Assembly (NCBI RefSeq): GCF_032854445.1
Contig: NC_088299.1
Location: 18,037,608-18,101,607 of the forward strand
Direction of reading: 5' to 3'
Source of the DNA: Liolophura sinensis
Taxonomy: Eukaryota > Mollusca > Polyplacophora > Chitonida > Chitonidae
DNA: 64,000 nt
Shown: positions 4,040 through 30,353 of the stretch, piece by piece
How the letters are laid out: every line of letters starts with the position of its first letter
How positions within the stretch are numbered: the first letter of the stretch is position 1
Notes under the pieces: model-generated
Told to the model about the DNA's origin: nothing
The model's input: only the letters and a program-made list of their open reading frames with translations
Databases searched by the model: none
Program-made: the position numbers and the translations under genes

Positions 4040-7000
4040 CTTGTTGCAGATATAAATCAAACACAAATACGTCCCATTTTAAACGGTATTTATCGATCAC
4101 AGAAGCCACTGGAGTACAAGGGCGCTGCGAAAGACTCATATTGGAAAATATGTTCACAACAGCTATTAAATTCTTAAAATCAAGAATATTGGAGCGGGCT
4201 TTTGCTTAGTGGATAACGTGCGCGTCTTTCGTTCGTTACGTGCGGCCTCAAACCCGGCCTCCGGCAAGCATATTTGCCATCTCCACGCTCTTCCTATTGG
4301 TGACAATAAATGGTGGATGTTCTCAATTTTCTGGAACAAGACCAAAAGTCTGCGCAGTCCAGAGCTTGATGAAAACCACTTGTCTTGCACCAGTAAGGTG
4401 TATACACACAACTGGGAAAGTTCCCTACTACCTGGCCAAACGTCGGCGGTTTAAAAAAGTCGGGCATTCCAGTGCCTTCCGCCCAAAAAAATGACAACCA
4501 TCGTACAAGTTTTTTGAATTTTTGAGAAAATTTCAGACGCAAAATAAGAGCATCACTTACCAGCCCCCAAATGCAAAATAAAAGCATCACTTACCAGCTT
4601 CCAATCGCAAAATATGAGCATCACTTACCAGCCTCCAAACGCAAAATAAGAGTATCACTTACCAGCCTCCAAACGCAAAATAAGAGCATCACTTACCAGC
4701 CTCCAAACGCAAAAGAAGAGCATCATTTACCAGCCTCCAAACGCAAAATAAGAGCTTCACTTACCAGCATCCAAACGCAAAATATGACCATCACTTAGCA
4801 GCCTCCAAGCGCAAAATAAGAGCATCACTTACCAGCCTCCAAGCGCAAAATAAGAGCATCACTTACCAGCCTCCAAACGCAAAATATGAGCAGCACTTAC
4901 CAGCCTCTAAACGCATAAAATAAGAGCACTATTTACTATCCTCCAAAAGCAGAATAAGAGCATCACCTACCGGCCTCGAAACACAAATTATGTGCATCAC
5001 CTACCAGCCTCAAAACGCAAAATATGAGCATAACTTACCGGCCCCCAATCGCAAAATAAGAGCATCACTTACCAGCCGCCAAATGCAAAATAAGACCATC
5101 ATTTACCGGCCTCCAAACGCAAAACAAGAGCATCATTTACCAGCCCCCAAACGCAAAACAAGATCATCACTTACCAGCCTCCAAACGCAAAACAAGAGCA
5201 TCACTTACCAGGCTCCAAACGCAAAATAAGAACATCAGTTACCATCTCCCAAACGCAAAATACGAGCATCACTTACCAACCCTCAAACGCAAAAAAGGGC
5301 ATCACTTATCAGCCTCCAAACGCAGAATATGAGCATCACTTAAAGGTCCCCAATCGCAAAATACAAGCATCACTTACCAGCCCCCAAAGGGAAAATACAA
5401 GCATCACTTACCAGTCGCCAAACGCAAAATTAGAGCATCAATTACCGGCCTCCAAACGCAAAACAAGAGCATCACTTACCAGCCCCAAACGCCAGACAAG
5501 ACCATCATTTACCGGCCTCCAAACGCAAAACAAGAGCATCATTTACCAGCCCCCAAACGCAAAACAAGATCACCACTTACCAGTCTCCAAACGCAAAATA
5601 AAAACATCAGTTACCATCTCCCAAACGCAAAACTAGAGCATCACTTACCAGCCTTCAAACGCAAAGTAAGGGCATCACTTATCAGCCTCCAAACGCAGAA
5701 TATGAGCATCACTTAAAGATCCCCAATCGCAAAATACAAGCATCACTTACCAGCCCCCAAAGGGAAAATACAAGCATCACTTACCAGTCGCCAAACGCAA
5801 AATGTGAGCATCAATTGCCGGCCTCCAAACGCAAAATGTGAGCATCACTTACCAGCCCCAAACGCCAGACAAGAGCATCACTTACTGACCTCCAAACGCA
5901 AAACAAGAGCATCAATTACCAGCCTCCAAACGCAAAATAAGACTATCACCTACCAGCCTCCAAACGCAAAACAAGAGCATCACTTACCAGCCCCAAACGC
6001 CAGACAAGAGCATCACTTACTGACCTCCAAACGCAAAACAAGAGCATCAATTACCAGCCTCCAAACGCAAAATAAGACTATCACCTACCAGCCTCCAAAC
6101 GCAAAACAAGAGCGTCAGTTACCAGCCCCAAAACGCAAAACAAGAGCGTCAGTTACCAGCCTCCAAACGCAGAACAAGAGCATCATTTACCAGCCTCCAA
6201 ACGCAAAAACAAGAGCATCATTTAACAGCCCCCAAATGCAAAAACAAGAGCATCACTTACCAGGCTCCAAGCGCAAAATAAGAGCATCACCTACCGGCCT
6301 CCAAACGAAAAATAAGAGCATCACTTACCAGCCTCCAAACGCAAAACAAGAGCATCACTTACCATCCCCCAAATGCAAAATGTGAGCATCGCTTACCAGC
6401 CTCCAAGCGCAAAATACGAGCATCACTTACCATCCCCCAAACGCAAAATATGAGCATCACTTACCAGCCTCCAAACACAAAATAATAGCATTATTTACCA
6501 GCCTCCAAACGCAAAATAAAAGCATCACTTACCAGCCTCCAAACGCAAAATATGAGCATCACTTACCAGCTTCCAAACGCAAAATAATAGCATTATTTAC
6601 CAGCCTCCAAACGCAAAATAAAAGCATCACTTACCAGCCTCCAAACGCAAAATATGAGCATCACTTACCAGCTTCCAAACGCAATATATCAGCATCACTT
6701 AACGGCTTCCAAACGCAAAACAAGAGCATCATTTACCCGCCTCCAAACGCAGAACAAGAGCATCACTAATCAGCCCCCAAACGCAAAATAAGAGCATCAT
6801 TTACCAGCCTCCAAATGCAAAATAAGAGCATCACTTACCAGCCTCCAAATGCAAAGAAAAGAGCATCACTTACCAGCCTCCAAATGCAAAGAAAAGAGCA
6901 TCACTTACCAGCCTCCAAAAGCAAAATAAAAGCATCAGTTACCATCAACCAAACGGAAAACAAAAGCATCACTTACCATCCCCCAAACGCAAAACAAGAG

Positions 7001-9914
7001 CATCACTTACCAACCCCCAAACGCAAAATAAGAGCATCACTTACCAGCCCCCAAATGCAAAATGTGAGCATCACTTACCAGCCTCCATACGCAAAACAAG
7101 AGCATCACTTACCAGCCCCCAAACGCAAAATAAGAACATCATTTACCAGCTCCCAAACGCAAAATATAAGCATCACTTACCAGCCTCCAAACGCAAAACA
7201 AGAGCGTCACTTACCAGCCTCCAAACGCAAAACAAGAGCGTCACTTACGAGCCTCCAAACGCAAAACAAGAGCGTCACTTACCAGCCTCCAAACGCAAAA
7301 TAAGAGCATCACTTACCAGCCTCCAAACGCAAAATAATAGCATCACTTACCGGCCTCCAAGCGCAAAACAAGAGCATCACTTATCAGCCTTTAAACGCAA
7401 AATGTAAGCATCACTTACCAGCCTCCAAACGCAAAATATGAGCATCACTTACCAGCCTCCAAACGCAAAACTAGAGCATCACTTACCAGCTTTCAAACAC
7501 AAAATAAGAGCATCACTTACCAACCTCCAAACGCAAAATGAGAGCATCACTTACCAGCCTCCAAATGCAAAACTAGAGCATCACTTACCAGCCCCCAAAC
7601 GCAAAATAAGGACATCATTTACCAGCCCCCAAACGCAATACAAGAGAATCACTCACCAACCTCCAAACGCAAAATATGAGCATCACTTACCAGCCTCCAA
7701 ACGCAAAAACAAGAGCGTCACTTACCAGCCTCCGAACGCAAAAACAAGAGCATCATTTACCAGCCTCCAAATGCAAAAACAAGAGCATTACTTACCAGCC
7801 TCCAAACGTAAAATAAGAGCATCACTTACCAGCCTTCAAACGCAAAACAAGAGCATCACCTACCGGCCTCCAAAAGCAAAATAAGAGCATCACTTACCAA
7901 CCTCCAAACGCAAATATTGAGCATCATTTACCAGCCTCCAAACGCAAAAGGAAAGCATAACTTACCAGCCACCAAACGCAAAGCAAGAGCATCACTTACC
8001 AGCCTCCATACGCAAAATAAGATGAAAGCATGGCCAAAGCTATTTCGCCTGGCTTAGTTGAACTTCCCTCAAAAGGCTGGCTAAAGTTCTCAGTGTTTCC
8101 TACGTAAAGGTGATGCAATAATCATTAGTGTGTTGGCACCAAAACATACTTCTTCTGCATTAATTGGTTATCTTATGCGCTGTACACTAAAAACACACCC
8201 ATCGTCAATTTGTATACATAGCTTCCTTTTACCATACTCAAAACGCCCAACTCATTCTTCTAACCCGGTCTATAGCGACATTATAACTGAGCTTTCACCG
8301 ACGTTTCCTATTAACTATTCATACTTATTTCCATACTTCTTTACACCATGTAAACGAAACATTCGAAACATTCAGCTCATTCTCCTTCCTTTTTTTTTGT
8401 TATATTGTGGTTGAATGTTTCCAACGTGTCTTGTTATCTATACATACCCAATGCCATTTCGTATATTCCTCCCACGATGATAAGTACAATAGCCGTTGCT
8501 TTTGCCCCACTGAACCATATCTGAATTTTGGAGATGTACTTGACGTTGATGCAGTTCAGGACGGCGCATAATACTGAAATGGAATTTTGTTTCGAGTGGT
8601 GCTTAACGCCATATTGAAGAACTTTTCACTTATATATATGATGGTGGACAGCTGGTTAACCATTGCAAGCCATCGTATCATCGTATTACCCGCATGCGGA
8701 TGGCAAGTGTTACCCAAGCGGCTCTTAAAAGGGCGGGATCCGTGAATGTGATTGTGAAAATACCTGTCAGCCTAAAGATTGAACTGCTGATTCACTGATG
8801 TCTCTAACGCTGTACTCAATGACATGCAACGGTGGTAAATTTCATTGTGAAAACAACCCGGAACGAACTACGCTCATTTCTTGAGTAACTGAGAAACTTG
8901 TTGACGTTTGACGCGCGTGTTTTCATCCGCATTAAGCTCAGTATTAATGCCTTATTGTTGGAAGGCATGTGGTATCCGCCAAACTTTGTGTAATGCTGTC
9001 TGAATGGTCCTCAAGACGATATCGATCGTTTATTGGGACCAAGGTACGAGAACAACGGAGACAGAAGAGTGCGAAGTTCTCTGACCAAGCCCAAAATTGA
9101 ATGAATGATCATGGCTTAACGCCACATCGGCAATTTTGCAGCCATATCGTGCCGAGCGGCTGGGATTGAACCAACTGGTCATATATTCGCACTACTAAAT
9201 GACAAGGAACGACACCCCTGTGCTCAAGATGGGTCAGTATTTGTTCTCTAAGTGCAATCGTAAATTACAAATTATCTACTCACAGAAAATAGCCCCAGCC
9301 AGAAGCCTCACTCCCACTAGTGGCAGGGCGCAGCCTGAGAAGAACGGCTGGACGATGTACACGGCCGAGACGTAAGCCAACAACGCCCAAGCAGGGCACA
9401 CAAGAAGAATAATATAGCCCCACAAGGTAACAAAACCAGCCATTGACCCGAATGTCTGCAAAACGTACGAATACGACCCCCCTGCTTCCGGGAAACGGAT
9501 GCCCAGTTCTGTGTAACATAACGCTGACAAGAGATTCACAATTCCACCAGAGAACCAGACGATGAGTGACAGTCCCACAGAGCCGGAGTATTGCAAGATG
9601 GGACCAGGGGAGATGAATATGGACAATCCTCCACTCACAGCGAACAAAATAGCCACTAAATGTGGCAGAGAAATAGACCTGTCCAATCGGACAATGACAG
9701 CACCACGAGGAGATTTCTCCGCCGTCCCGGCCACAGCAGCTCCATTAGAAGAGTTGTCATCGCTATTGCTCACTTCCGTCGGCTCTGTCTGGTTGCCCGG
9801 GTTTGTGTTGCCAAGCGGACCGTTTTGGGTGTGGTCAAAGCTTGAAGATCCAGTGCCTAAGTCAACGTCCTCAAAGCCTGGGTTCGTTCGTCCGTCCTTG
9901 GCCGCAACCTGCAT
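3871..9914 (-). CDS. Gene A: SLC7-type amino-acid transporter light chain, 5' four exons (partial)
   Basis: Exons in transcript order are 9284-9914, 8448-8573, 8000-8099 and 3871-4039; together they give 342 codons with matching phases (1, 1, 2, 0). The product resembles the light chains of heteromeric amino-acid transporters (LAT, b0,+AT, xCT group), which exchange amino acids across the plasma membrane as 12-helix proteins linked to an SLC3 heavy chain. Visible are a polar N-terminus of about 80 residues, helices 1-4 in exon 1, helix 5 in exon 2, helix 6 in exon 3 and helix 7 in exon 4. The conserved loop cysteine for the heavy-chain disulfide is present (FFSGCALP, Cys195). Helices 8-12 were not found in bases 1-3870 and probably lie off the left edge; a truncated gene is the alternative. 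Intron 3 is almost entirely a 34-bp tandem array built from its own 5' splice site. The substrate cannot be named from sequence. Confidence 0.88.
4195..4460 (+). mobile_element. tRNA-derived SINE, family III, in intron 3 of gene A
   Basis: A tRNA-like head with a B-box-like CTCAAACCCGG near 4247 is followed by a body sharing the ACCACTTGTCTT and AGGTGTATA blocks with the copy at 49766-49980. It occupies the short stretch between exon 4 and the 34-bp array. Ends are approximate. Confidence 0.5.
4536..7999 (-). repeat. 34-bp minisatellite made of gene A exon 3 end plus 5' splice site, about 100 copies
   Basis: Read on the minus strand, each unit is TATTTTGCGT, TTGGAGGCTG, then GTAAGTGATGC and TCT. 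This is the last 23 nt of exon 3 followed by the first 11 nt of intron 3. The real exon differs from the consensus by one base (GCGTAT against GCGTTT); a copy near 7081-7098 shares the exon base. The array is continuous with the true donor at 7999/8000 and fills most of the intron. Copies vary at a few positions and some blocks are duplicated. It looks like repeated expansion of a splice junction by slippage or unequal exchange. Confidence 0.95.
8000..8099 (-). CDS. Gene A exon 3 (helix 6; seed of the intron 3 array)
   Basis: This 100-nt exon has a CGTAG acceptor and a strong GTAAGTG donor; it reads NTENFSQPFEGSSTKPGEIA then LSSYFAYGGW. Length and phase equal exon 3 of gene B, whose matching end is SSYYGYGGW. 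Its last 23 nt plus the first 11 nt of the intron are the unit of the following 34-bp array. Confidence 0.92.
8448..8573 (-). CDS. Gene A exon 2 (end of helix 4, helix 5)
   Basis: This 126-nt exon lies between a TTTCAG acceptor and a GTATGT donor and reads LCAVLNCINVKYISKIQ then AKATAIVLIIVGGIYEMA. It has the same length and phase as exon 2 of gene B. It matches the family region ending helix 4 (NC..VK) and helix 5. Confidence 0.92.
8574..9283. other. Intron 1 of gene A
   Basis: This 710-bp intron runs from the GTGAGT donor after exon 1 to the TTTCAG acceptor before exon 2. It holds the SINE-like fragment at 9040-9215 and nothing else recognisable. Unlike intron 1 of gene B, it has no tandem array. 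Confidence 0.75.
9040..9215 (-). mobile_element. tRNA-derived SINE fragment 3' of gene A exon 1
   Basis: On the minus strand, GGTTCAATCCCAGC resembles a tRNA B box, and the block also has a ggcgttaagccat motif typical of SINE tails. It lies in intron 1 of gene A. The family was not assigned and the ends are approximate. Confidence 0.45.
9284..9914 (-). CDS. Gene A exon 1 (start codon, N-terminus, helices 1-4)
   Basis: ATG at 9914-9912 opens a 210-codon exon ending at a GTGAGT donor in phase 1. Residues 11-20 (NPGFEDVDLG) match the start of paralogue B (NHGFEDIDLG), which supports the start. Helix 1 reads SGGLSIFISPG at 94-104, where the family usually has GSGIF. Helix 2 contains ALCYTELG and helix 3 contains CPAWALLAYVSAVY. 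Cys195 sits in the loop before helix 4. Confidence 0.92.
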
Positions 9915-15507: not shown

Positions 15508-18500
15508 CTGTGAAAGAGTAATACAAGTGGGAATAAAATATGTTTTATTTATTTATTTGCTTGTTGTTAAAAGTTGTTGTCACAGTTTTGTGAGTGGAAG
15601 AAATCGGAGTGCCCTAGCAACCTGTGTAAGTCACTGACAGCATCTGACGCGTAGGCAGGCAAGCCATAATGAACTCCGCAATAGGCCACACCAGTGTAGC
15701 GGAGCGCCTGCATGGAATGGGATTTTGGCAAATCGTTCTGACCTATACACAACTTGCTAATACAGACTCGTTGACTGGGTTTACATTGTTTGTTTTTTTT
15801 CTGCCCAAACAATGTAGTAATGGGTAATGATTCTAATTAATATATGGCTTGTTAATACGAATAAACTCGTGTGTTCATTCGGTTTCCATTGGATTGTTTC
15901 TATGGATAACAATCCACGCTACATCCTGACGGCATCAGGATGGAAAATGCCAACCCTTGACTTTTCTTTTGTACATTTTTCTGTTATCTCCTGAGAATAT
16001 AAGCTTGAGAATGTCAGTTCTTTGTTTCTCTCTTATCCATGTCCTGAGAACATAAGCTTGGGTATACCAATTCTCTGTTTTTCTCTTATCTATTGTTCAG
16101 TTATGTCCTGAGAATATAAGCTTGCGAATGCCCCTGGGTATTTTTATTACTCATTTTTTTATCGTGTCCTCAGAATATAAGCTTGAAAAAGCTAATTCTT
16201 GGGTAATGTATTACTCATTTCTAAATGGTATCTCCACAGTTTAAATTTTCAAACGCTAATCCTTGATTTTTTGCGTTTGAAGATTCAAAATGACGAGCGC
16301 ATGCGTAACAGTACCTTATAGGGAGGCTTCCTGTTGGTCGGTTTCCAGCGAAGATATAGCAGAACAACCAAAACTTCCAAAGCCATCAAGATGGCGCCAA
16401 TACTGACGTATTCTATCAGGACTATGGTGTCTCCAGTAAACAGCATGACGATGGACATGATGCCCTGAGTGAAAATAAAGGCCGTGTTTCAATTAGGGTG
16501 GGGATTTTCAGAAAATATATCCATAATACGACGATGATGAGGTGTGTGAACTAAGGGAACCAAGAGCAGACAGGCTGCTGCTACATCCCCTCGAGGTAAA
16601 GCTTGTGACGTAAAGCCACAACCCAACACGCCGGAACTGGATTCGAACACGCGACGTTATTTTTTAAGGAGATGATGTATGCAGCGAGACCGGTTCGTCC
16701 GAAGCTGTATTTCATGAGTGATTAGAAGAGACTTTGATTTTAGAATGTTTTAATCGAGGTTCATGTATTGGTCACATGAACCGATTCCTCCAAATCATTT
16801 CTGAATTAAGTTAAAATTTTAAAATTGATTTAACGCTTGCTCTTAGTCCCAGCGAAGTTTAAGCGGAGACGAGTAACAGGTGATATGTTAGGTCAAATAT
16901 ATCAGTTTTAATTTTGGAGGCCTCAACATCTCAGTAGTAGAGCGCCCACTTCGACGGCGGAAGATCCAGCGTCAGTCATTGGGCGTTCAGCATTAAGGGG
17001 ATTGTGCAAAGACTGGTTGACCGGTATCAGTATAATGGCTCGAGTGGGCAGCTTACTTGCCTTCGGAAAGTCGTCTCACTGAAGCAGCTCTAGATAAAAT
17101 AGCAATGGAAATCCGTCCTGCACCAAGGAGGCACATTGCATTCACTCTAAGGACTCTTTCGTCATCATATGACTGAAAAATTGACAAGTACGATGTTAAA
17201 CCCTAAGCCCTCACTCCCTCAGTTTTAACTCTGAACCTCTGGGTGTATAAACTGTGTATTATATTGAGGTTTTCATTTTCCACTTAAGTACAAAATGAGA
17301 TTATAGAGTTTAATGGCCGTTTAAAATGCACAAACGTGGACTTAATCACACGGGTTTATCAGTTGATAAAAAGACAATGTAGGGGATGAACAAAAAATAT
17401 ATTTACATATAGCAAGTCCTCGGGCAAATTCCACTGTGCAATTTAATAATTAAATTTCGACAATGATTTAAAAGCATAGTTTTTAACCACTTCCTTAATG
17501 CTATCTCCAGAAAAGTCAAAATTTCAACATCCAGAAGAAAAATTAAGACTTTTAAGGAGGGTTTAAGCATTGACAAGTCGAAAATGGTTTTGTTAGGGGA
17601 GAAGAAAACATAACAATGACACCAAAAGAGCCTGAAAACTTATTTGCAAATATTGTCTTTAAATTTATTAAAAAAAATTTTCTTTTAGCAGAAAAGGGAA
17701 TTTTTTCTACGATGGATATTTGGGACCACCCCTTGGTATATATCTTCTTTGCATAATAATGTTGTAAATAAAGATGTGTCTAATAAGTCTGATGTAAATT
17801 TGTTTATTATATTCAAACACATGTATTTAATTTGGATATGTGTAAGCTGTAATGAAAGGCACACTCCATAAGACACCCTGAAAGTGTTTTATTAGAGATC
17901 CAACATGTTCGCTCGATTTCAGGTCATCTAGAGGATTTACAGCAACGTACTGATCACGCCTTCACTTACTCTTATATACCTGTTCCACAACAATGTAGAA
18001 CAATTCTGAACTGACAGTTTACACTTACCAGATCTCTTCAATGTAATGAGTTTCTACACAGCTTTTTGAGACGTTAATTTAAATCAAACCGGCTGGGTAA
18101 AAACGTATATGCCTCTATAATCAACAAACATTCGATTGCTGTCAGTGAGTTTGTATGAGATGTATCATGAGCTGCACGAATTGACACGAATCGTGGTGTG
18201 AGCTATACGCATTGACACGAATCGTGGTGTCCGTCACACGCATTGCCACGATTCGTGGTGTGCGTCACACGCATTGACACGAATCGTGGGGTGTGATCTA
18301 CGCCTTAGCACGAATCGTGGCGTGTGATGTACGCCTTGACACGAATCGTGGTGTGAGCTGTACGCCTTGAGACGAATCGTGGTGTGTACAGTACACATTG
18401 ACACGAACTGTGGTGTGTGTTGTACGCACGAATCGTTGTGTGAACTGTACGCATTGTAACGAACCGTGGTGTGAGCTGTGGGCATTGATGCGAATCGTGG

Positions 18501-21500
18501 TGTGAGCTGTACACACTGGCACGAATCATGGTAATGTGATGTACGTATTTACACGAATTGTGTGTCGCAAGCATTGGCAAGAATCGTGGTGTGCGATGCA
18601 CACTCTGACACGAATCATGGTGTGTGCTGTACGCATTAACACGAATCGTGGTGTGTGGTGCAAGCATACCCATTGACACGAATCGTGGTGTGCTGTACGC
18701 ATTGTGTGGCACAAAATGACACGAATAGTAGTGTGTGCTGTACGTATTGACATAAATCGTGGTGTGAGCTGTACGCACTGATGCGAATTATGGTGTGTGA
18801 TGTACGTATTAACACGAATTATGGTGTATGCCGCACGCATTGACACGAATCGTGATGTGAGCTGTACGCATTGACTCAAATCATGGTGTGTTTCGCACAC
18901 ACCGACACAAATCGTGGTGTGTGCTGTGCGGATTGACAAGAATCGTGGTGTGAGCTGTGCGTTTTGACACGAATCGTGGTGTGTGCTGTTCGCATTGACA
19001 CAAATCGTGGTGTGTGCTTTAGGCCTATGCATTGACACGAATGGTGGAGTGTGCTGTACGCATTAACACGATTCGTGGTGTGTGATGCACACACTGACAC
19101 GAATCTTGACGTCTGCTGTACGCAATGACATGAATCGTGGTGTGAGTTGGACGCATTTACACGAACCGTGATGTGTGCTGTGCAAATTAACACGAATCAT
19201 GGTGTGAGCTGTAAGGATGGACACGAGCTCACGGTAAACTCACGAGAATGAAGAGTGATGGCCATGGAGTGTGATACTTTTGGTGAACCATTCCCACAAA
19301 CGACGGCATATGTCCCACACGACCCGCGGCGAACAGTGACCTGAAAACAAAGGAGTCCAACATATCAAAGGCAGTGCTCCTTTAATAGACAAAAGGTGTT
19401 TTATTGTCACTAATTTCAAAGCTAAATTTTAACAAAAGTAATCTTTATAAATTTTACCTGTTAACAACATCGCTCGTGTGATTGCCAATACTATTTACAC
19501 ACGTTTTGAGGTCACATTCTAAGAGGCATTTATTCGATGATCACCATCATCATTGTAGCAATATGAAATCAGTTCACAGACAGAAAACATTATGATATTT
19601 ATTTATTTGATTTAAGTTTTGTGCACATTTATTTCATTGGTGTTATACGCATTTCACATATGCCACTCCAGCCGGCACTATGTTGGACGAACCGGAAAGA
19701 GCCCTGGGGAAGCCCACGACCACCCGCTGGTTGCCGGATTATTTTATTAACTTATTTGGTTGGTGATTTACGCCGTGCTTAAGATCATGTCACTTATATA
19801 ACGGCGACCGACATTATGGTCGGAGGAAACCCGGGGTAACATGCCGGTAGACCTTCCCAAGTACGACCCGTGAGGATGCCAACATAAACTGGATTTGAAC
19901 TCCCAGCGACTGCATCAGTTGAGGCTCTTGGGTCATTGTGCAGTGCTGACATGCTAAAAATATGCTAACAACGAAGTCACTGTAACTAAAATAAAATCCG
20001 TGATAAACGGAAAAAAAATTAAAAGCTGTCCAGGAAATTTATACACCGGTACGTTTATTTTCTTTGAACGTTTCCGGGTAAAATGCTTATCGATTATGTC
20101 ACATCAATTTGTTTCAAGGTCAATGCATTCACAGCTGTACAAGTATAAACATTTTAAATGCAGAAGGCTAGCAATGAATGTGTATTAGGTGCCAAAAATC
20201 CTCATGTCACTGGTGAGAATATGATCAAACTCAGGTGGAGAAAACATTAATAAACCAACCTATTTTTCAAGTGTTTAATGGTTTTATCATCTAGTATATA
20301 CATCCAGTTGGTATTGTTCTCACCTGGAGTGGCCGAGGACGAGAGCGTTGAGGGCTCCGATGGCTGACACCACAACCAGAACAGATATTACAGCTGTGAT
20401 TGGCCGGTACAATCTGTCTGCATATAACTAAAACACGGGGAAATGGTCATATAAAACTACCGTATTTAATACTGGGATTGCTCGTTTTTTTTATGCACAA
20501 GGTGACATTACATTGTTGTACCTGTAATAAAAAAGACTCGAGTCCAAAAGTAAAAGCATAAAAGTAATGGATCATTTTATCACGAGTATTTACTTGGCAA
20601 GTTTGGCCTCTTCTGCTGGCTTCACTGGTTTAAAATAGTTCATACTTTGTAATCCTATACCACAAACATCATTACTGCTGGAAATACTAGGCGAGCAACC
20701 TTTTGCAATATGACCTCACTTACAACAGCTATAGCATCGGTGCCTGTGATCTCCGTGAAGCTTAGGATGGAGAAGTAAGCCATGTTGGTGAGACAGAACA
20801 GGGTGATGACGAGAGCGAAGCTGATGTACACAGATCGAGGTAGATCTCTCTCCGGGCGCTTGCTCTCCTCAACCACGTTCACTATAACCTGCCTGACGGA
20901 AACAACGGGAATAACAGGAAATCAGTCTTGATTTTCTGATATTTTATCGAATTTTTCTGGAAATATTGTTTTGAAAAAAAGTGAGATTTCGCCAGTATGC
21001 CATTTTTGTTGGCACGGTAAATGTAAAATAACCTCTTGGTTTTCTGTTTAACTATTTGAATCCAAAATAAAAAGAAAATTAAAATAAACCATAAAGGACA
21101 TACTTCTGTTTTATAAAAACTCTTTCCAGGAAATATCGACAGCCATGCGCCTTTGGCGTACATTCTAACTCTGATTTCGTAAATGAGTAACCGTGTTGAT
21201 AGCAATGGTCAAAACAGTAATGTTTCGAGATGAAATGCCACAGGTAATAATGTTACACGATATGACTTATCGAAGAGTTTTAGATCATTGCCACTCCATA
21301 AGGGAACCTTAAGCAAAGTTAAACAGGAATAGTTCTACGTACCACCCACCATATCCGTAATACGAGGACAATATCGCCAGTGCTACCTGTCCCGGTTTCT
21401 CTGTGGTTCCATCGAATGACTGATTAAACTTTTCTATTTCCCCTAAAATGGAAGTGAATGTTTCTGATTAGTCGTATAATTAGTCGTATAATTAGTCGTC

Positions 21501-24500
21501 ACTACTAGCGACACAAACAACAGATGTACCATTGCCTGTATTTTGTGTAATATAACATTACACAGTTTGTCAACACAGAGCCTTATACAATAGTACAATG
21601 CCAAAACTTACGTGTCACGGGCAAAGGTCAGATAAATTACGTTCACCCAAGTCTTCGTGGTAACCTTGACATTCTTTATCTCATTCCGTGGCGCGCCATA
21701 GTACATCAACTCGCTCTCAAAACGTCCATTTCTTGTTATTTTAAAATTATCTGGCATTTCATACTTCTATTTCCTTCTAGAATAAGCTTTCAAAACAACA
21801 TTGTTGTTCTTCTTTGCGTGTTGAGCTGTTCTATAAATCCGAATACTTAAATAAGGTTGTTAGATATGTTTACACATGTCAGATTCTCAACAGACGTCAG
21901 TGTACTGAGGTCAGTCGGGTAGACAGTATAATGCGCGGCCTTATTTTCGAATTCGACTGAGATTTTCTGGGGAAATATTCGATAAAGGTCAGTGTCAATG
22001 GTTGCAAAAGGTACATAAAATGTCTTAGCCTGCGCACAGACCATGTATCAAGTGGATTTGGATGCAGTATGATTTGTCGATCGGGTAGCAGAATACAGAT
22101 ACATTGCCATCATCGGGTGCACACATTGTCCGGACTAAGGCAGACATCTGACTCCCTGTATCAGTAAATACAAGCGTTCCTTAGATTGGATTTTCGGGGT
22201 AACAGTTTGTATTTGCTTTTATTAGCGTAATTTTTATTCACGAAATCTGTAATGGGAGATGCAAAGGTTCCCCGAGAAAGAAAACATGATTTGATCTCTA
22301 TCTCCCAAGGACTGCAAGTGTCTATACATGGGCGATTTGAATACTGATTTCGTTCCTCCGACTAGAGTATTCCTTGTGTCTTTCCAACATCATGCTTTCT
22401 TAGTGCTTTGGTGACTTTTTGTTAAACGTTGTTGTGTGAATTGGCGTAGCGATTATTAATCGAAAATGGGATAGAGCTCCTTTCATTACAATTTTAATGT
22501 CCCTCGATTTCCTCCATAACTGTTCATCCGTTGGGCGTCACACTTGCCGGGTATATTCCCGAACACTAAAGAAAGTGAAGTGTTCAAGTATGGAAATATT
22601 GTGTATGAAAAAATCCGACATGTTGGATTTTTACATAAACCATAGATTCCTCGCATCCCGGTAGCGGCTTAGTGACAATAAAACACCTTTCGTCTATTAA
22701 AGGGGCACTGCCTTCGATATGTTGGATTTGTGCACTAAAATCACATTCCTCAGATCTCCAAAAGTGCTCAGTTACCTGTGGAATGACACCTATAGCCATG
22801 GTATTTACACTGTGTGGTAGATAGGAATTATTTACACATATATATTTAATTGGCATGGTATAAATTGCCTACAAATCACTGATAGGTTTCTTTGTCTTTG
22901 ACTCACCCGTGGCCATTCTGTAAATGCCTCCTACCACGATGATGAGAAGAGCCAGGAGCTTCACACTACTGAGGAATGTCTGGACTTTGGTGACGATTTT
23001 CACGTGAATACAGTTGAGAGCGACACAGGATACTGAAACAGTGGATACAGTTGAGAGCGACATAGGATACTGCAACAATGGATACAGTAGAAAGAGACAC
23101 AGGATACTGAAAGAGTGGGTACAGTTGAGAGCGACACAAGATACTGAAACAGTGGGTACAGTTAAGAGCGACACAGGATACTGAAAGAGTGGATACAGTT
23201 GAGAGCGACACAAGATACTGAAACAGTGGATACAGTTGAGAGCGACACAAGATACTGAAACAGTGGATACAGTTGAGAGTGACACAGGATACTGAAACAG
23301 TGGATACAGTTGAGAGCGACATAGGATACTGCAACGGTGGATACAGTTGAAAGAGACACAGGATACTGAAACAGTGGGTACAGTTGAGAGCGACACAAGA
23401 TACTGAAACAGTGGATATAGGTGAGAGCGACACAGGATACTGAAACAGTGGGTACACTTGAGAGCGACACAAGATACTGAAACAGAGGGTACAGTTGAGA
23501 GCGACATAGGATACTGCAGCAATGGATACAGTTGAAAGCGACACAGGATACTGAAAGAGTGGATACAGTTGAGAGCGACACAAGATACTGCAACAGTGGA
23601 TACAGTTGAGAGCGACATAGGATAATGCAACAATGGATACAGTTGAAAGCGACACAAGATACTGAAACAGTGGATACAGTTGAGAGCGACACAGGATACT
23701 GAAACAGTGGATACAGTTGAGAGCGACACAGGATACTGAAAGAGTGGATACAGTTGAGAGCGACACAAAATACTGAAAGAGTGGATACAGTTGAGGGCGA
23801 CACAGGATACAGAAAGAGTGGGTACAGTTGAGAGCGACACAAGATACTGAAACAGTGGATACAGTTGAGAGCGACACAGGATACTGAAAGAGTGGATACA
23901 GTTGAGAGCGACACAGGATACTGAAACAGTCGATACAGTTGAGAGCGACACAAGATACTGAAAGAGTGGATACAGTTGAGAGCGACACAAGATACCGAAA
24001 CAGTGGATACAGTTGAGAGCGACACAGGATACTGAAAGAGTGGATACAGTTGAGAGTGACACAGGATACTGAAACAGTCGATACAGTTGAGAGCGACATA
24101 GAATACTGCAACGGTGGATACAGTTGAGAGCGACACAGGATACTGAAAGAGTGCATACAGTTGAGGGCGACACAAGATACTGCAACAGTGGATACAGTTG
24201 AAAGCAACACAGGATACTGAAAGTGTGGATACAGTTGAGAGCGACACAAGATACTGAAAGCAACACAGGATACTAAAAGAGGGGATACAGTTGAGAGCGA
24301 CACAGGATACTGAAAGAGTGGATACAGTTGAGAGCGACACAAGATACTGAAACAGTGGATACAGTTGAAAGCGACACAGGGTACTGAAAGAGTGGGTACA
24401 GTTGAGAGCGACACAAGATACTGAAACAGTGGATACAGTTGAGAACGACACAAGATACTGCAACAGTGGATACAGTTGAGAGCGACACAGGATACTGAAA

Positions 24501-27500
24501 GAGTGCATACAGTTGAGAGCGACACAGGATACTGAAAGAGTGGATACAGTTGAGAGCGACACAACATACTGCAACAGTGCATACAGTTGAGAGCGACATA
24601 GGATAATGCAACAATGGATACAGTTGAGAGCGACACAAGATACTGAAAGAGTGGATACAGTTGAGAGCGACACAACATACTGCAACAGTGCATACAGTTG
24701 AGAGCGACATAGGATAATGCAACAATGGATACAGTTGAGAGCGACACAAGATACTGAAAGAGGGGATACAGTTGAGAGCGACACAGGATACTGAAACAGT
24801 GGATACAGTTGAGAGCGACACAAGATACTGAAACAGTGGATACAGTTGAGAGCGACACAAGATACTGAAAGAGTGGATACAGTTGAGAGCGACACAAGAT
24901 ACTGAAACAGTGGATACAGTTGAGAGCGACACAAGATACTGAAACAGTGGATACAGTTGAGAGCGACACAAGATACTGCAACAGTGGATACAGTTGAGAG
25001 CGACACAGGATACTGAAAGAGTGCATACAGTTGAGAGCGACACAAGATACTGAAACAGTGGATACAGTTGAGAGCGACACAGGATACTGAAAGAGTGGAT
25101 ACAGTTGAGAGCGACACAAGATATTGAAACAGTGGATACAGTTGAGAGCGACACAGGATACTGCAACAGTGGATACAGTTGAGAGCGACACAGGATACTG
25201 AAACAGTGGATACAGTTGAGAGCGACACAGGATACTGCAACGGTGGATACAGTTGAGAGCGATACAGGATACTGAAAGAGTGGATACAGTTGAGGGCGAT
25301 ACAGGATACTGAAACAGTCGATACAGTTGAGAGCGACACAGGATACTGCAACGGTGGATACAGTTGAGAGCGACACAGGATACTGAAAGAGTGCATACAG
25401 TTGAGAGCGACACAGGATACTGAAAGAGTGGGTACAGTTGAGAGCGACACAGGATACTGAAAGAGTGGATACAGTTGAGAGCGACACAGGATACTGAAAG
25501 AGTGGATACAGTTGAAAGCAACACAGGATACTGAAAGAGTGGATACAGTTGAGAGCGACACAGGATACTGAAAGAGGGGATACAGTTGAGAGCGACACAA
25601 GATACTGCAACAGTGGATACAGTTGAGAGCAACACAGGACACTGAAACAGTGGATACAGTTGAGAGCGACACAAGATACTGCAACAGTGGATACAGTTGA
25701 GAGCGACACAAGATACTGCAACAGTGGATACAGTTGAGAGCAACACAGGACACTGAAACAGTGGATACAGTTGAGAGTGACACAGGATACTGAAACAGTG
25801 GATACAGTTGAGAGCGACACAAGATACTGCAACAGTGGATACAGTTGAGAGCAACACAGGACACTGAAACAGTGGATACAGTTGAGAGTGACACAGGATA
25901 CTGAAACAGCTGAGAGCGAAACAGGATACTGAAACAGAAAGCTGGAAGTAGCTGCAAACTACAGTAGATAAAACTGCTCCCTGGTTCTGACAAAGCGGTT
26001 TAAAATTTTGTAGGCCTACTCTTTTCTTTCCCGTGGTAATTGTAACTTACTACACCCATTAAGCTTATGTGCAAAAACACCCAAGGTTTTTGTTTAGTGC
26101 ATGTAGTCACCTGCAATTACACCCAAGCTTTTGTTTAGTGCCTGTAGTCACCTACAATTGCACTCAAGTTTCTGTTTGGCGGATGTAGTCACCTACAATT
26201 ACACCCAAGTTTCTGTTTAGTGAATGATGTCACCTACAATTACACTCAAATTATTGTTGAGTGGATGAAGTCACCTACAATTACACCCAAGTTTCTGTTT
26301 AGCGGATGAAGTCACCTACAATTACACCCAAGTTGTTTGTTTAGTGGATGAAGTTACTTATAATTACTCCCAAGTTTCTGTTTACTGGATGAGGTCACCT
26401 ACAATTACACTCAAGTTTCTATTTAGTGAATGAGGTCACCTACAATTACACTCAAGTTTCTCTATAGTGGATGAGGTCACCTACAATTACACTCAAGCTT
26501 CTATTTAGTGAATGAGGTCACCTACAATTACACTCAAGTTTCTCTATAGTGGATGAGGTCACCTGCAATTACACTCAAGTTTCTGTTTGGCGGATGTAGT
26601 CACCTACAATTACACCCAAGTTTCTGTTTAGTGAATGATGTCACCTACAATTACACTCAAATTATTGTTGAGTGGATGAAGTCACCTACAATTACACCCA
26701 AGTTTCTGTTTAGCGGATGAAGTCACCTACAATTACACCCAAGTTGTTTGTTTAGTGGATGAAGTTACTTATAATTACTCCCAAGTTTCTGTTTACTGGA
26801 TGAGGTCACCTACAATTACACTCAAGTTTCTATTTAGTGAATGAGGTCACCTACAATTACACTCAAGTTTCTCTATAGTGGATGAGGTCACCTACAATTA
26901 CACTCAAGCTTCTATTTAGTGAATGAGGTCACCTACAATTACACTCAAGTTTCTCTATAGTGGATGAGGTCACCTGCAATTACACTCAAGTTTCTGTTTG
27001 GCGGATGTAGTCACCTACAATTACACCCAAGTTGTTTGTTTAGTGGATGAAGTTACTTATAATTACTCCCAAGTTTCTGTTTACTGGATGAGGTCACCTA
27101 CAATTACACTCAAGTTTCTATTTAGTGAATGAGGTCACCTACAATTACACTCAAGTTTCTATTTAGTGAATGGTGTCGCCTACAATTACACTCAAGCTTC
27201 TATTTAGTGAATGAGGTCACCTACAATTACACTCAAGTTTCTCTATAGTGGATGAGGTCACCTGCAATTACACTCAAGTTTCTGTTTGGCGGATGTAGTC
27301 ACCTACAATTACACCCAAGTTTCTTTTTAGTGAATGGTGTCACCTACAATTCCACCCAAGTTTCTTTTTAGTGAATGGTGTCACCTACAATTCCACCCAA
27401 GTTTCTTTTTAGTGAATGGTGTCACCTACAATTACACCCAAGTTGTTTGTTTAATGGATGAAGTTACTTATAATTACTCCCAAGTTTCTGTTTACTGGAT

Positions 27501-30353
27501 GAGGTCACCTACAATTACACTCAAGTTTCTCTATAGTGGATGAGGTCACCTACAATTACACTCAAGTTTCCGTTTACTGGATGAGGTCACCTACAATTAC
27601 ACCCAAGTTTCTGTTTAGCGGATGAAGTCACCTACAATTACACCCAAGTTGTTTGTTTAGTGGATGAAGTTACTTATAATTACACCCAAGTTTCTGTTTA
27701 CTGGATGAGGTCACCTACAATTACACTCAAGTTTCTGTTTGGCGGATGTAGTCACCTACAATTACACCCAAGTTTCTGTTTAGTGAATGGTGTCACCTAC
27801 AATTACACTCAAGCTTCTGTTTAGTGAATGAGGTCACCTACAATTACACTCAAGTTTCTGTTTAGTGAATGAGGTCACCTACAATTACTCTCAAGTTTCT
27901 CTATAATGGATGAGGTCACCTACAATTACTCTCAAGTTTCTCTATAATGGATGAGGTCACCAGCAATTACACTCAAGTTTCTCTATAATGGATGAGGTCA
28001 CCAGCAATTACACTCAAATTATTGTTTAGTGGATGTAGTCACCTATAATTCCACCCAAGTTTCTCTATGGTGAATGATGTCACCTACAATTACACTCAAA
28101 TTATTGTTTAGTGGACGAAGTCACCTATAATTACACCAAAGTTTCTGTTTCGTACTTGCAGTCACGTACAATTACACTCAAGTTTCTGTTTAGTGGATAA
28201 AGTCACCTACAATTACACCCAAGTTTCTGTTTAGTGGATAAAGTCACCTATAATTACACCCAAGTTGTTTGTTTAGTGGATGAAGTCACCTATAATTACA
28301 CCCAAGTTTCTGTTTAGTGGATGAAGTCACCTACAATTACACCCAAGTTTCTGTTTCGTACTTGTACTCACCTACAATAACACCCAAGCCTCTGCTTAGT
28401 TCATTAGGTTTGTGTACATATACTGTGTCTTCTTGTGACAGAGCGAGTGCATACCGCCAAAATGCTGCCGCCACTGAGGTATCATTATACTGACTCCGGG
28501 CCAAATAGTGATGTGTCCTTGCTTTTAACCTCTCAGTTCTGAGCACCAAGCGAGACAGTGCCATTTTTAACGTGTTTGCTATAACCCGATCTGGGATTGA
28601 TCACTTCGAAGCGGTCTCATCTGTGATTCAGCCAAACACTTTCTACTTCCCCAACCATGTACTTGCTCTATACTTTTCACTAGAGAAAAATTGCGGCGGT
28701 TTGTGAATGGCCTAAAACTCGTAATAACAAGTTTCTTTAGCAAGATGTAAGGACAGGAGCGTCCGTACAGATCATGTGGGTATTCGCAGGGATATTCAGA
28801 TTGTATCGTCGTCACTGGTTGTTTTTGGCATAAATATCATGTACGTTGAATACAAGTTGGAAATGTATTAATTAAAATCTATCTTACTCGCGCAATGACT
28901 CAGTTTTAATTAAAGTCAGTTTTAATTAAAGTAATGGGGGTGGGATCTAAATATATTGTTATGGAACATGAACATAAGGAATCCACAATATCAGAGTGTT
29001 CGTAATCCTTTATGCACTTTGAAAATTTAATTACTAAAATACGAAGACAGTGTATGCAGAATATCGTCTATAGATACATATACATGTATCGCTTAATGGA
29101 GTGTACTCAACATTAGTACATACTTACGACATGATCTTAAAGGCAGCTCGGTCTGTACACACACACAGATTAATGAGGGGTAACAATATATCAGATATAT
29201 ACAAGCATAATGAAGTACATGTACATACGATATCTGTGCGTAAGCATAATATAACATATGCAGCATCCGTCTGACACATGTAAATTATACAACTGACATG
29301 AAAAAGTAAAATAAAGCAAAGCTACGATAAAGCAGAATGTGTTGAAGCACGAAGTATAATAAAGTATAAACGTTATCTGCGCATGCAGTAAATTAGCATA
29401 GCTTGGATAACTATAAGCAGCATCCGTATGTGGACTTACACATTTAACATCATATAAAGTATAAGCTGCATGCGTCAAAACAAATAGCATATTTAAGTAT
29501 AAGCAGCATCCGTTTATGGACCTAGGCATTTAATATTTAATAAAGTATAAGCAGCATCTGTAAATACACATATATACTTTGACTTTCTCGTTGTGTAATT
29601 TATAGCTAATAATGAAGGGCTGTTAAAACAATCATCCACATCTGAACAATACAGATCTTTTTGGCACCCTATATTAAAAAAAAACATGTGTAAATCAGAG
29701 ATGGGATTTTACTCACGGAGGACAGTTGCTGCCAGAAGCCTTACCCCCAACAATGGCGGGGAACAGCCAGAAAAAAACGGTTGGACAGAGTAGAGCGCCG
29801 TGATGTACGCCAACAACGCCCAGGCGGGGCTGACCACCAGAATAGTATAGCCCCACGCTGTCAGGAAGGCAGGCATCGAGCCAAACGTTCTCAGGGTGAA
29901 CACATATGGGCCTCCAGCTTCTGGGAACAGCGTGCCCAGTTCCGTGAAGCATAGTGCCAATAGCAGATTTAAAATCCCCCCGGCGAACCAGATGATCAGA
30001 GCGAGTCCCACCGAGCCGGAGTATTGCAAGACCGGACCAGGGGATATAAATACAGATTGACCGCCTGTAGAAGCTACTAAAATGACCACAAAATGACCCA
30101 AAGACATAAACCTATCCAGCCGTACAGTTTCATTTCTTGTATTTATGGGAGGCGACTTCTCAACTGCTTCACACTCTGGTTTAACTGCCCCTGTTGCGGT
30201 GTAAATGTCACATTTATGTATTACTTGGGTCCCTGTCTGGTTGATCGGGCTTGAGTTACCAGGGTGACCAGTGTCAAGACTTGAGGGACTTTCACCTAGG
30301 TCGATGTCTTCAAAACCATGATTTGCTTCTCCGCCTTCGTCCTGCATCGCCAT
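15330..30353 (-). CDS. Gene B: SLC7-type amino-acid transporter light chain, eight exons (last exon not found)
   Basis: Exons in transcript order are 29717-30353, 22907-23032, 21343-21442, 20724-20892, 20324-20427, 19244-19340, 16315-16464 and 15330-15507. They sum to 1561 nt (520 codons plus 1 nt) with matching phases throughout. The usual family length is near 500 residues, so only a short tail exon is missing. The product should be a 12-helix plasma-membrane amino-acid exchanger light chain. Signatures are the loop cysteine (FFSGCSPP, Cys197), EESKRPERDLPRS before helix 7, GALNALVLGHSR in helix 8 and AAGRVGHMP after it. The helix 1 motif is TGGQSVFISP instead of the common GSGIF form. Gene A is its tandem paralogue. 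Four tandem arrays lie in or just upstream of the gene. The substrate cannot be predicted. Confidence 0.92.
15974..16210. repeat. Degenerate tandem repeat of about 60-75 bp, 4 copies, intron 7 of gene B
   Basis: The phrase ctgagaatataagcttg and close variants recur four times (about 15990, 16043, 16108 and 16172), with ttattactcattttt-like spacers. It lies between exons 8 and 7 of gene B. Confidence 0.7.
16315..16464 (-). CDS. Gene B exon 7 (helices 9-10)
   Basis: This 150-nt exon reads GIMSIVMLFTGDTIVLIEYV, then SIGAILMALEVLVVLLYLRW and KPTNRKPPYK. The final basic/proline segment matches the family's R...RP.K. loop. Acceptor CTCAG and donor GTACTG are acceptable. Confidence 0.92.
16560..16665 (-). 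mobile_element. tRNA-derived SINE head fragment, antisense
   Basis: Minus-strand text GTGTTCGAATCCAG is a near-perfect B box, and CTTTACGTCACAAGC follows. Only the head seems to be present. It lies in intron 6 of gene B. Confidence 0.5.
16920..17225 (+). mobile_element. SINE family II copy
   Basis: A tRNA-like head (ctcagtagtagagcgcccac) is followed by gactggttgaccggtatcag and a tail with catatgactgaaaaattg and acgatgttaaaccctaagcc. The body is shared with 2509-2700. It lies in intron 6 of gene B. Confidence 0.75.
17226..18160. other. Intron 6 of gene B, A/T-rich stretch
   Basis: No exon, array or mobile-element boundary was recognised in this A/T-rich stretch. It is intronic because the exons at 19244-19340 and 16315-16464 join in phase 0. 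Confidence 0.6.
18166..19226. repeat. 31-bp minisatellite with an 11-nt palindrome per unit, about 34 copies
   Basis: The unit is close to attgacacgaatcgtggtg followed by tgagctgtacgc. Each copy carries CACGANTCGTG, an almost perfect inverted repeat. Spacing is 31 bp (18181, 18212, 18243). The array ends about 20 bp downstream of the gene B exon 6 donor. Similarity of the unit to the exon end is too weak to call it exon-derived. Confidence 0.93.
19244..19340 (-). CDS. Gene B exon 6 (intracellular loop, start of helix 9)
   Basis: This 97-nt exon reads SLFAAGRVGHMPSFVGMVHQ then KYHTPWPSLFIL and ends at GTGAGT. It corresponds to the family segment with GREGHLP and TP.PSL. A 31-bp palindromic array begins about 20 bp downstream of its donor. 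Confidence 0.93.
19605..19735 (-). mobile_element. SINE family I, truncated antisense copy
   Basis: From its A/T-rich tail near 19605 this copy reads on the minus strand through the family body (gtgggcttccccagg) and stops at about 19735, where a second copy in the same orientation starts. Confidence 0.6.
19738..19990 (-). mobile_element. SINE family I copy, antisense, in intron 5 of gene B
   Basis: The tail motif (ttacgccgtgcttaagatca on plus) is followed by the body (cattatggtcggaggaaacc) and a head containing gatttgaactcccagcgact, which is an antisense B box. Confidence 0.75.
20324..20427 (-). CDS. Gene B exon 5 (helix 8)
   Basis: This 104-nt exon has a TTTTAG acceptor and a GTGAGA donor; it reads LYADRLYRPITAVISVLVVV then SAIGALNALVLGHSR. 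It matches the family block that usually reads ADR......S.FG.LN......SR. Confidence 0.92.
20724..20892 (-). CDS. Gene B exon 4 (loop and helix 7)
   Basis: This 169-nt exon has a GTCAG acceptor and a GTAAGT donor. It reads QVIVNVVEESKRPERDLPRS and then a helix with LTNMAYFSIL. An alternative AG four bases downstream would put a stop in frame, so the upstream AG is used. Confidence 0.93.
21343..21442 (-). CDS. Gene B exon 3 (helix 6)
   Basis: This 100-nt exon lies between a TTTTAG acceptor and a GTACGT donor; it reads GEIEKFNQSFDGTTEKPGQV then AILSSYYGYGGW. Length and phase match gene A exon 3. Confidence 0.92.
22907..23032 (-). CDS. Gene B exon 2 (end of helix 4, helix 5; seed of the 37-bp array)
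   Basis: This 126-nt exon follows a TGTTTCAG acceptor and ends at GTGAGT; it reads LSCVALNCIHVKIVTKVQ then LLALLIIVVGGIYRMATG. Its first 26 nt, together with the acceptor, are repeated in tandem through the adjoining intron. The boundary was fixed by gene A exon 2, which has equal length and phase. Confidence 0.9.
23007..25935 (-). repeat. 37-bp minisatellite made of gene B intron 1 acceptor plus exon 2 start, about 78 copies
   Basis: On the minus strand each unit reads ACTGTTTCAG, then TATCCTGTGTCGCTCTCAAC, then TGTATCC. This equals the last 10 nt of intron 1 followed by the first 27 nt of exon 2 (the true exon has TGTATTC). Spacing is 37 bp (for example 23228 and 23265). The innermost copy is the real splice acceptor at 23032/23033. 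Common variants are GTTTCAG, CTTTCAG and TTGCAG. All three minus-strand frames stay open for hundreds of codons because the unit has no stop; this follows from the repeat and does not show a separate gene. Confidence 0.95.
26040..28385. repeat. 41-bp minisatellite in intron 1 of gene B, about 57 copies, with higher-order structure
   Basis: The unit is close to cacctacaattacactcaag then tttctgtttagtggatgaggt. Spacing is 41 bp (26401, 26442). A block of ten units is duplicated at 411-bp distance: the variant tctgtttggcggatg lies at 26171, 26582 and 26993, and again at 27281. The array lies between exons 1 and 2. No link to an exon boundary was seen. Confidence 0.93.
28390..29700. other. Intron 1 of gene B, unique part
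   Basis: No exon was supported. Between about 29380 and 29560 the phrase ataagcagcatccg recurs three times, a loose tandem repeat of about 50-90 bp. The rest is A/T-rich. Confidence 0.5.
29717..30353 (-). CDS. Gene B exon 1 (start codon, N-terminus, helices 1-4)
   Basis: ATG at 30353-30351 (MAMQDEGGEANHGFEDIDLG) is preferred; a second ATG follows two codons later. The exon ends at a GTGAGT donor in phase 1, as in gene A. Helix 1 contains GGQSVFISPGP, and Cys197 lies in the loop before helix 4. The polar N-terminal part is much less similar to gene A than the helices. Confidence 0.9.

Follow-up and report, generated by a model that had tools for sequence, protein, structure and literature searches.

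The first intron of gene B, an SLC7 (LAT-type) amino-acid transporter gene, carries at its 3′ end a 37-bp tandem array that spans the intron 1/exon 2 boundary. Gene B lies in the 64,000-nucleotide stretch of DNA analysed here (the window), which belongs to contig C5 of an assembly of 609 Mb in 632 contigs. The presence of the array across this boundary is confirmed, and the authentic boundary is its terminal copy: the innermost unit (23042-23006) continues into exon 2. We consider it likely that the array, a minisatellite of the boundary-spanning ('mirage') kind, arose as a neutral by-product in a genome rich in minisatellites. It belongs to a known class, here probably in another phylum than amphioxus. 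The anatomy of the array as laid out in the original prediction, which was made from the sequence, is supported.

Results

Anatomy of the 37-bp array

Tandem Repeats Finder described 23004-25909 by a period of 37, 78.0 copies, 88% matches and a score of 4324, and a chance match as the source of the array is excluded by this score. Wrap-around alignment to a circular consensus gave 79 unit rows with the real exon copy counted; this number takes in one short internal remnant near 24282-24260 and leaves out an 80th row of two bases only. About 78 copies had been proposed: the array is real, and its size is corrected to 79 units with the real one included. Unit alignment also confirmed the proposed composition of the unit, in which the last 10 nt of the intron (ACTGTTTCAG) are followed by the first 27 nt of exon 2 (TATCCTGTGTCGCTCTCAACTGTATCC). 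The unit straddles the intron–exon boundary, whose position is set by homology. The AG that was expected in every copy is retained in most of them, 73 of the 79, i.e., many but not all units have the splice signal. The pyrimidine stretch varies as predicted, with ACTGTTTCAG in 26 units, ACTCTTTCAG in 23 and ACTGTTGCAG in 11. Variation among the units is concentrated at three places (G/C, T/G, C/T), and the real exon copy matches the consensus used at all but one of its 37 positions. Identical unit pairs numbered nine at lag three versus 0-4 at other lags up to 15 (raw counts, with no significance test), which would fit past duplication of 111-bp blocks. At the outer end, a pyrimidine-rich tract (TTTCTGTTTCAG) may be the old intron end; a comparison of this region with the introns of two paralogous genes, A and C, gave no similarity above that of shuffles.

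Two trivial origins of the array were considered. Tandem arrays are common in the host genome, and an unrelated satellite or mobile repeat could have landed beside exon 2, but the unit holds the codons of the conserved SLC7 segment VALNC, which is common to paralogue C. Because it carries these shared codons, the unit is derived from exon 2 of gene B, and such a landing is almost certainly not the explanation. It is highly improbable that the array is an assembly artefact in which the copy number was inflated, or the array collapsed and rebuilt. An odd mitochondrial concatemer (contig C99, described below) implies that some repeats in this assembly may be misassembled, but the units contain many private and shared variants in mosaic order, several different boundary arrays exist, and an artefact would not set the unit edges at a conserved intron boundary.

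The authentic acceptor of exon 2

Exons 1 and 2 of gene B together matched PF13520 (3.2e-18) and 24 distinct PDB sequences, all named amino-acid transporters (xCT type, y+LAT, LAT1, LAT2 and b(0,+)AT chains; best 4e-40). The exon 1-exon 2 join is gapless in the three PDB alignments printed, and the spliced frame is open through exons 1-4. The real acceptor is the AG at 23034-23033, and exon 2 ends at a GTGAGT donor that starts from 22906. The codon and the phase of this intron in gene B are shared by paralogue A, also in the window, and by paralogue C (locus L028; G000:C5:17986688-17987008, which precedes the window by about 51 kb), and the residues across the join are L-LCAVLNC in A, L-SCVALNC in B and V-TFVALNC in C. 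Because the paralogues share the intron position and phase, the acceptor at 23033/23032 is ancestral and is that of the innermost copy. The earlier proposal that the innermost copy is the real acceptor is thereby supported, together with the gapless PDB join, and the homology check for an exon 2 acceptor elsewhere placed it at this same copy.

Intron 1 has no array in paralogues A and C. It is about 0.7 kb long in A and about 0.8 kb in C versus 6684 bp in gene B, and the introns between exons 1 and 4 of gene C are short and array-free. Intron gain by tandem duplication found no support, as intron 1 occupies the same position and phase in A, B and C and no new intron position was seen. The one close relative of exon 1 is 81% identical over 83% of the query and lies on a 1.7-kb contig; its frame departs from exon 1 at the same place as that of gene B and does not extend to the array.

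Splice-site strength and frame outcomes

Splice sites were scored by a home-made position-weight scheme with base frequencies that were not fitted, and a donor cut-off of 4. On this scale, the real acceptor is equalled or surpassed by 51 of the 82 other AGs in 22990-26000, and therefore strength alone cannot select it. The two outermost array sites, which follow the presumed old pyrimidine tract, score highest, at 6.06 (exon start 25928) and 5.59 (25909) versus 2.24 for the real site. The unit also contains CTCAAC, which we take to be branch-point-like, about 18 nt ahead of each AG, so that every unit amounts to a nearly complete acceptor. None of the 352 GT dinucleotides in 23040-25909 scores above 4 as a donor. 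As the best of them reaches only -0.4, a free-standing pseudo-exon within the array is unlikely.

If exon 1 were joined to an upstream copy, exon 2 would grow by a computed 37 nt per unit. Seventy acceptors were scored for frame (of the 79 units, 6 that lack AG and 3 irregular rows were set aside): the frame stays open with 10 of these, among them the real one, and runs into a premature stop with the other 60. In other words, 60 of 69 scorable decoys would truncate the protein. The nine frame-keeping decoys are every third unit upstream from unit 3 to unit 30, except unit 21, which has no AG.

These counts bear on the possibility that the array is a working splice-choice device, in which upstream acceptors add 37 residues per three units or cause frameshift and decay. 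Most units have an AG, many score like the real site, the nine decoys would leave the frame open, and a shortage of stop-making substitutions (P=0.07, see below) points the same way. Set against this are the 60 truncating decoys, the lack of an array at intron 1 of paralogues A and C, and the finding that a 111-residue piece of the array translation has no relative at E 0.001 or better among 1023 candidates, although short public contigs may miss arrays. In addition, the passages in print on amphioxus mirages say that splicing is left intact (PMC3087553, PMC3902484). On this evidence we regard such a device as quite unlikely. Its more elaborate form, a graded element in which a fraction of transcripts would splice exon 1 to upstream copies, producing an isoform ladder with 37, 74, 111 ... 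extra residues or decay and tuned by heritable array length, in a lineage with such arrays widespread, would be very unlikely.

Other boundary arrays and their placement

The gene B array had been described as the mirror case of an array in a paralogue, and this holds: the 34-bp array of gene A starts within the terminal part of exon 3, whose donor CTG/GTAAGT (slash, exon end) it repeats, and that of gene B repeats an acceptor. Exact copies of CTGGTAAGT number 49 in 4537-8060. The gene A array contains 73-75 stops per frame, in contrast with the nearly open gene B array.

Six boundary arrays were found in all: the window holds two, a 200-kb sample one and further SLC7 loci three. All belong to contig C5, from which nearly all samples were taken. 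They occur at both types of splice site, at an acceptor in gene B and at donors in gene A and loci L013, L029, L030 and L031. The sample was made up of 20 separate 10-kb stretches distributed over contig C5. In these 200,000 bp, Tandem Repeats Finder listed 43 arrays totalling 19,934 bp, and the fraction of 0.117 uses only the 17 stretches with repeats as its denominator. Among 118 open frames beside these arrays, two matched the WD40 family, and one of the two is the L013 exon (7e-09), whose donor is the first array copy. Other Pfam matches beside sampled arrays include Polyhedrin, YmaF and two domains of unknown function (DUFs). No rate of boundary arrays can be drawn from the 20 stretches because just one exon, that of the WD40 family, was recognised as coding.

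Four further SLC7 loci (L028-L031) were chosen among 22 matches blind to their repeats. Three have donor-spanning arrays (Table 1), and L028 (gene C) has no boundary array. L029, L030 and L031 lie within about 70 kb of each other, with the array at a different exon in each, and that of L030 extends about 62 nt into the exon and past the fetched end. No boundary arrays were found in six transglutaminase loci (one in the window, three on contig C9), and the count for their boundaries outside the window is 0 of 18.

Over nine loci outside the window, fetched blind to repeats, 3 of 49 exon boundaries lie inside arrays by the strict count. Circular shifts of the arrays within the loci gave a strict null mean of 2.29 (P=0.41) and a loose one of 5.8 (P=0.95), i.e., boundary arrays are not in excess over random placement by either count. 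Four of the five transglutaminase loci in this test hold no arrays, and a few exon ends may be some bases off (that of gene C exon 1 by 9). Within the window, 2 of 28 exon boundaries are inside arrays. A rough Poisson estimate of excess (P=0.02, 2 in 26 boundaries) was set aside because the window was picked for its arrays. No family match was obtained for three of the transglutaminase exons or for one late candidate exon of SLC7, which were placed by known motifs, and two more transglutaminase exons are candidates.

The placement result also bears on whether minisatellites are seeded at splice boundaries by an active mechanism, such as RNA-DNA hybrids or the reinsertion of spliced RNA. Seeding is favoured by the number of boundary arrays (six in a survey of small size), by arrays in three of the four SLC7 loci fetched blind, and by donors in five of the six cases; the lack of excess over shifted arrays and the 0 of 18 transglutaminase boundaries outside the window speak against it, and we judge it quite unlikely. 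Because the null matches the count, splice-site seeding is not needed; frequent birth of arrays and protection of the exon copy would be enough.

Table 1 Positions of the gene B, gene A and other boundary-array features (window coordinates unless a locus is named; slash, exon end).
Feature	Position	Strand	Evidence
Gene B exon 1 (212 codons + 1 nt; donor C/GTGAGT)	29717..30353	minus	sequence, PDB alignment, PF13520
Gene B intron 1 (6684 bp; contains 37-bp and 41-bp arrays)	23033..29716	minus	sequence
Gene B exon 2 (126 nt; phase 1 at both ends)	22907..23032	minus	sequence, gapless PDB join, open frame
Gene B exon 3 (no array at either end)	21343..21442	minus	spliced frame
Gene B exon 4 (acceptor end set by reading frame)	20658..20892 (low end provisional)	minus	sequence, frame
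Gene B 37-bp minisatellite (79 units)	23004-25909	minus	Tandem Repeats Finder, unit alignment
Outer end of 37-bp array in transcript order (degenerate partial copy behind pyrimidine-rich acceptor TTTCTGTTTCAG)	25910..25937 (end approximate)	minus	sequence
Gene B intron 1, 41-bp array	26077..28400	minus	Tandem Repeats Finder
Gene A 34-bp array (102.4 copies)	4537-8022	minus	Tandem Repeats Finder
Gene A exon 3 (first unit of the 34-bp array forms its end)	8000..8099	minus	sequence
L013 46-bp array (22.8 copies; repeats donor end of WD40 exon)	L013:7275-8322
L029 donor-spanning array (47-bp unit; SLC7 gene)	L029:4364-4788
L030 donor-spanning array (76-bp unit; SLC7 gene)	L030:7581-8000
L031 donor-spanning array (53-bp unit; SLC7 gene)	L031:5998-6930

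Discussion

A probably neutral boundary-spanning minisatellite

We propose that the gene B array would have arisen when a short segment covering the intron 1/exon 2 boundary was duplicated in tandem, and that it would then have expanded into the intron, presumably by unequal exchange or slippage. Selection on the protein would pin the innermost copy, because no other copy remains attached to the remainder of exon 2, and the remaining copies would drift as tolerated passengers. Recognition of exons as units is established for short exons in long introns, and the spliceosome would here pair the exon 2 donor with the nearest acceptor. Upstream acceptors are unlikely to form exons of their own, with no donor-like site behind them within the array, and most of them, if joined to exon 2, would ruin the protein. 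The array would thus be without function.

Several observations weigh against this explanation. The stronger outer acceptor would have to be neglected. The real exon 1 donor scores only -1.1 on the home-made scale, so the shortage of donors in the array is not proof. The array is nearly all open in three frames, with two stops in all, and stop-making substitutions account for 1 of 34 distinct ones versus 3.5 expected (P=0.07, gapped rows dropped), a shortage that weakly hints at coding constraint. The predominance of donors among the boundary arrays would not be predicted by random placement. Finally, the null test is small, and its exon ends were judged visually, with tblastn hits, open frames and splice letters as guides. 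As for the open frames, 24% of shuffled units are stop-free too, and they are therefore mostly a property of the unit; coding constraint was not supported as their cause, given this proportion and the P value above.

Comparison with known systems

Passages on amphioxus describe mirages in Adh3, the globins BflGb6 and BflGb9, PGBD5 and TnC; these lie at either intron end, have splice signals in many repeats and vary in length (PMC3087553, PMC3902484). According to the same literature, reverse-transcription PCR and Adh3 data suggest that splicing is intact despite the mirages (PMC3087553). As far as those passages go, the gene B array resembles them in its boundary-spanning tandem repeats, its authentic copy, and the presence of AG or GT in many but not all repeats. 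The arrays of genes B and A are long (79 and about 102 units), compared with the 6 and 3 repeat units given for an amphioxus globin in two haplotypes. The gene B array is known from the sequence of one assembly, whereas expression and length-variation data are presented for the amphioxus mirages. Unlike amphioxus, the host has a mitochondrial gene order of the mollusc type and is very probably outside the cephalochordates. An amphioxus identity, considered at first since mirages had been described there, was rejected on this gene order; a GFP family search gave no match in the host and none in 14 control genomes either, and it carries no information on this point. The host is probably a mollusc; less probably, it would be another lophotrochozoan with a conserved order, or the mitochondrial contig would come from a different animal.

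In human segmental-duplication genes, introns are reported to be altered by variable tandem repeats located at exon-intron boundaries (PMC2812944). Those repeats are described as accompanied by alternative transcripts and new introns, whereas the intron position in gene B is ancestral. In a potato gene, an intron is reported to have been gained through a boundary-crossing duplication (PMC4974935). The proposed duplication in gene B resembles that case in crossing the boundary between intron 1 and exon 2, but in potato one duplication led to a new intron, and in gene B an old intron was lengthened with no new position seen. An earthworm metallothionein intron has minisatellites, with no boundary repeat mentioned in the passages concerned (PMC12783039). 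No report of boundary arrays in molluscs was found among the titles and abstract starts listed in a literature that left subscription papers mostly outside.

Boundary arrays can be regarded as natural experiments in which dozens of near-identical acceptors lie in one intron and one has to be picked; in gene B, the picked acceptor is not the strongest by a simple score. The six arrays in a small survey suggest that boundary arrays may be a general feature of animal genomes rich in minisatellites and not a cephalochordate oddity. Boundary arrays lengthen introns (6.7 kb in gene B versus 0.7-0.8 kb in its paralogues) and could feed intron gain or exon extension. Gene predictors may be misled by the gene B array because it is open in nearly all of the three frames.

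Other arrays in the window and the mitochondrial contigs

In the 41-bp array of gene B intron 1, GTGAGT occurs only in the first copy in transcript order (about 28371), and the other donor-like sites found are GTGACN. An open frame of about 76 codons precedes this array and has no Pfam match. We speculate that the array could be a donor array that has decayed, belonging to a first exon that is alternative or unannotated.

A 76-bp array at 60808-62054 (16.4 copies, 95% alike) adjoins a transglutaminase-like exon; it was ruled out as a boundary array, as it ends 16 nt short of the acceptor. At 44460-44737, upstream of a transglutaminase N-terminal exon, a 15-bp array lies in an open frame, translates into HSPGR-like repeated residues and may be coding. 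An Axin motif match to this region, in which no stretch passes alone, looks like low complexity. Two 31-bp arrays occupy 18168-19226, and their unit has a near-palindrome, CACGAATCGTG.

Contig C99 (108,685 bp) has seven COX1 matches about 15.5 kb apart, i.e., it is a head-to-tail mitochondrial concatemer. This is likely an assembly artefact; its unit length differs from the single-copy contig C632 (15,209 bp). One strand of C632 reads COX3-K-A-R-N-I-ND3-S-ND2-COX1-COX2-D-ATP6, and the other F-ND5-H-ND4-ND4L-S-CYTB-ND6-ND1-L-L-16S-V-12S-M-C-Y-W-Q-G-E (T and P reversed). COX1 was identified in the COX1 search. Pfam confirms ND1, CYTB, ND4L, ND5, ATP6, COX2, ND3 and COX3, and Rfam confirms 16S; ND2 has a generic subunit match, ND6 has no Pfam match, and the assignment of ND4, ND6 and 12S is based on their position and reading only. 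The tRNAs were called by ARAGORN, with four extra calls set aside. In the passages available on chiton mitochondrial genomes, the tRNA groups KARNI and MCYWQGE occur in Katharina and Cryptochiton, an aggregation involving trnG-trnE is given as a potential mollusc synapomorphy, and chiton gene orders are described as mostly conserved and near the inferred mollusc ancestor (PMC5162086, PMC7003433).

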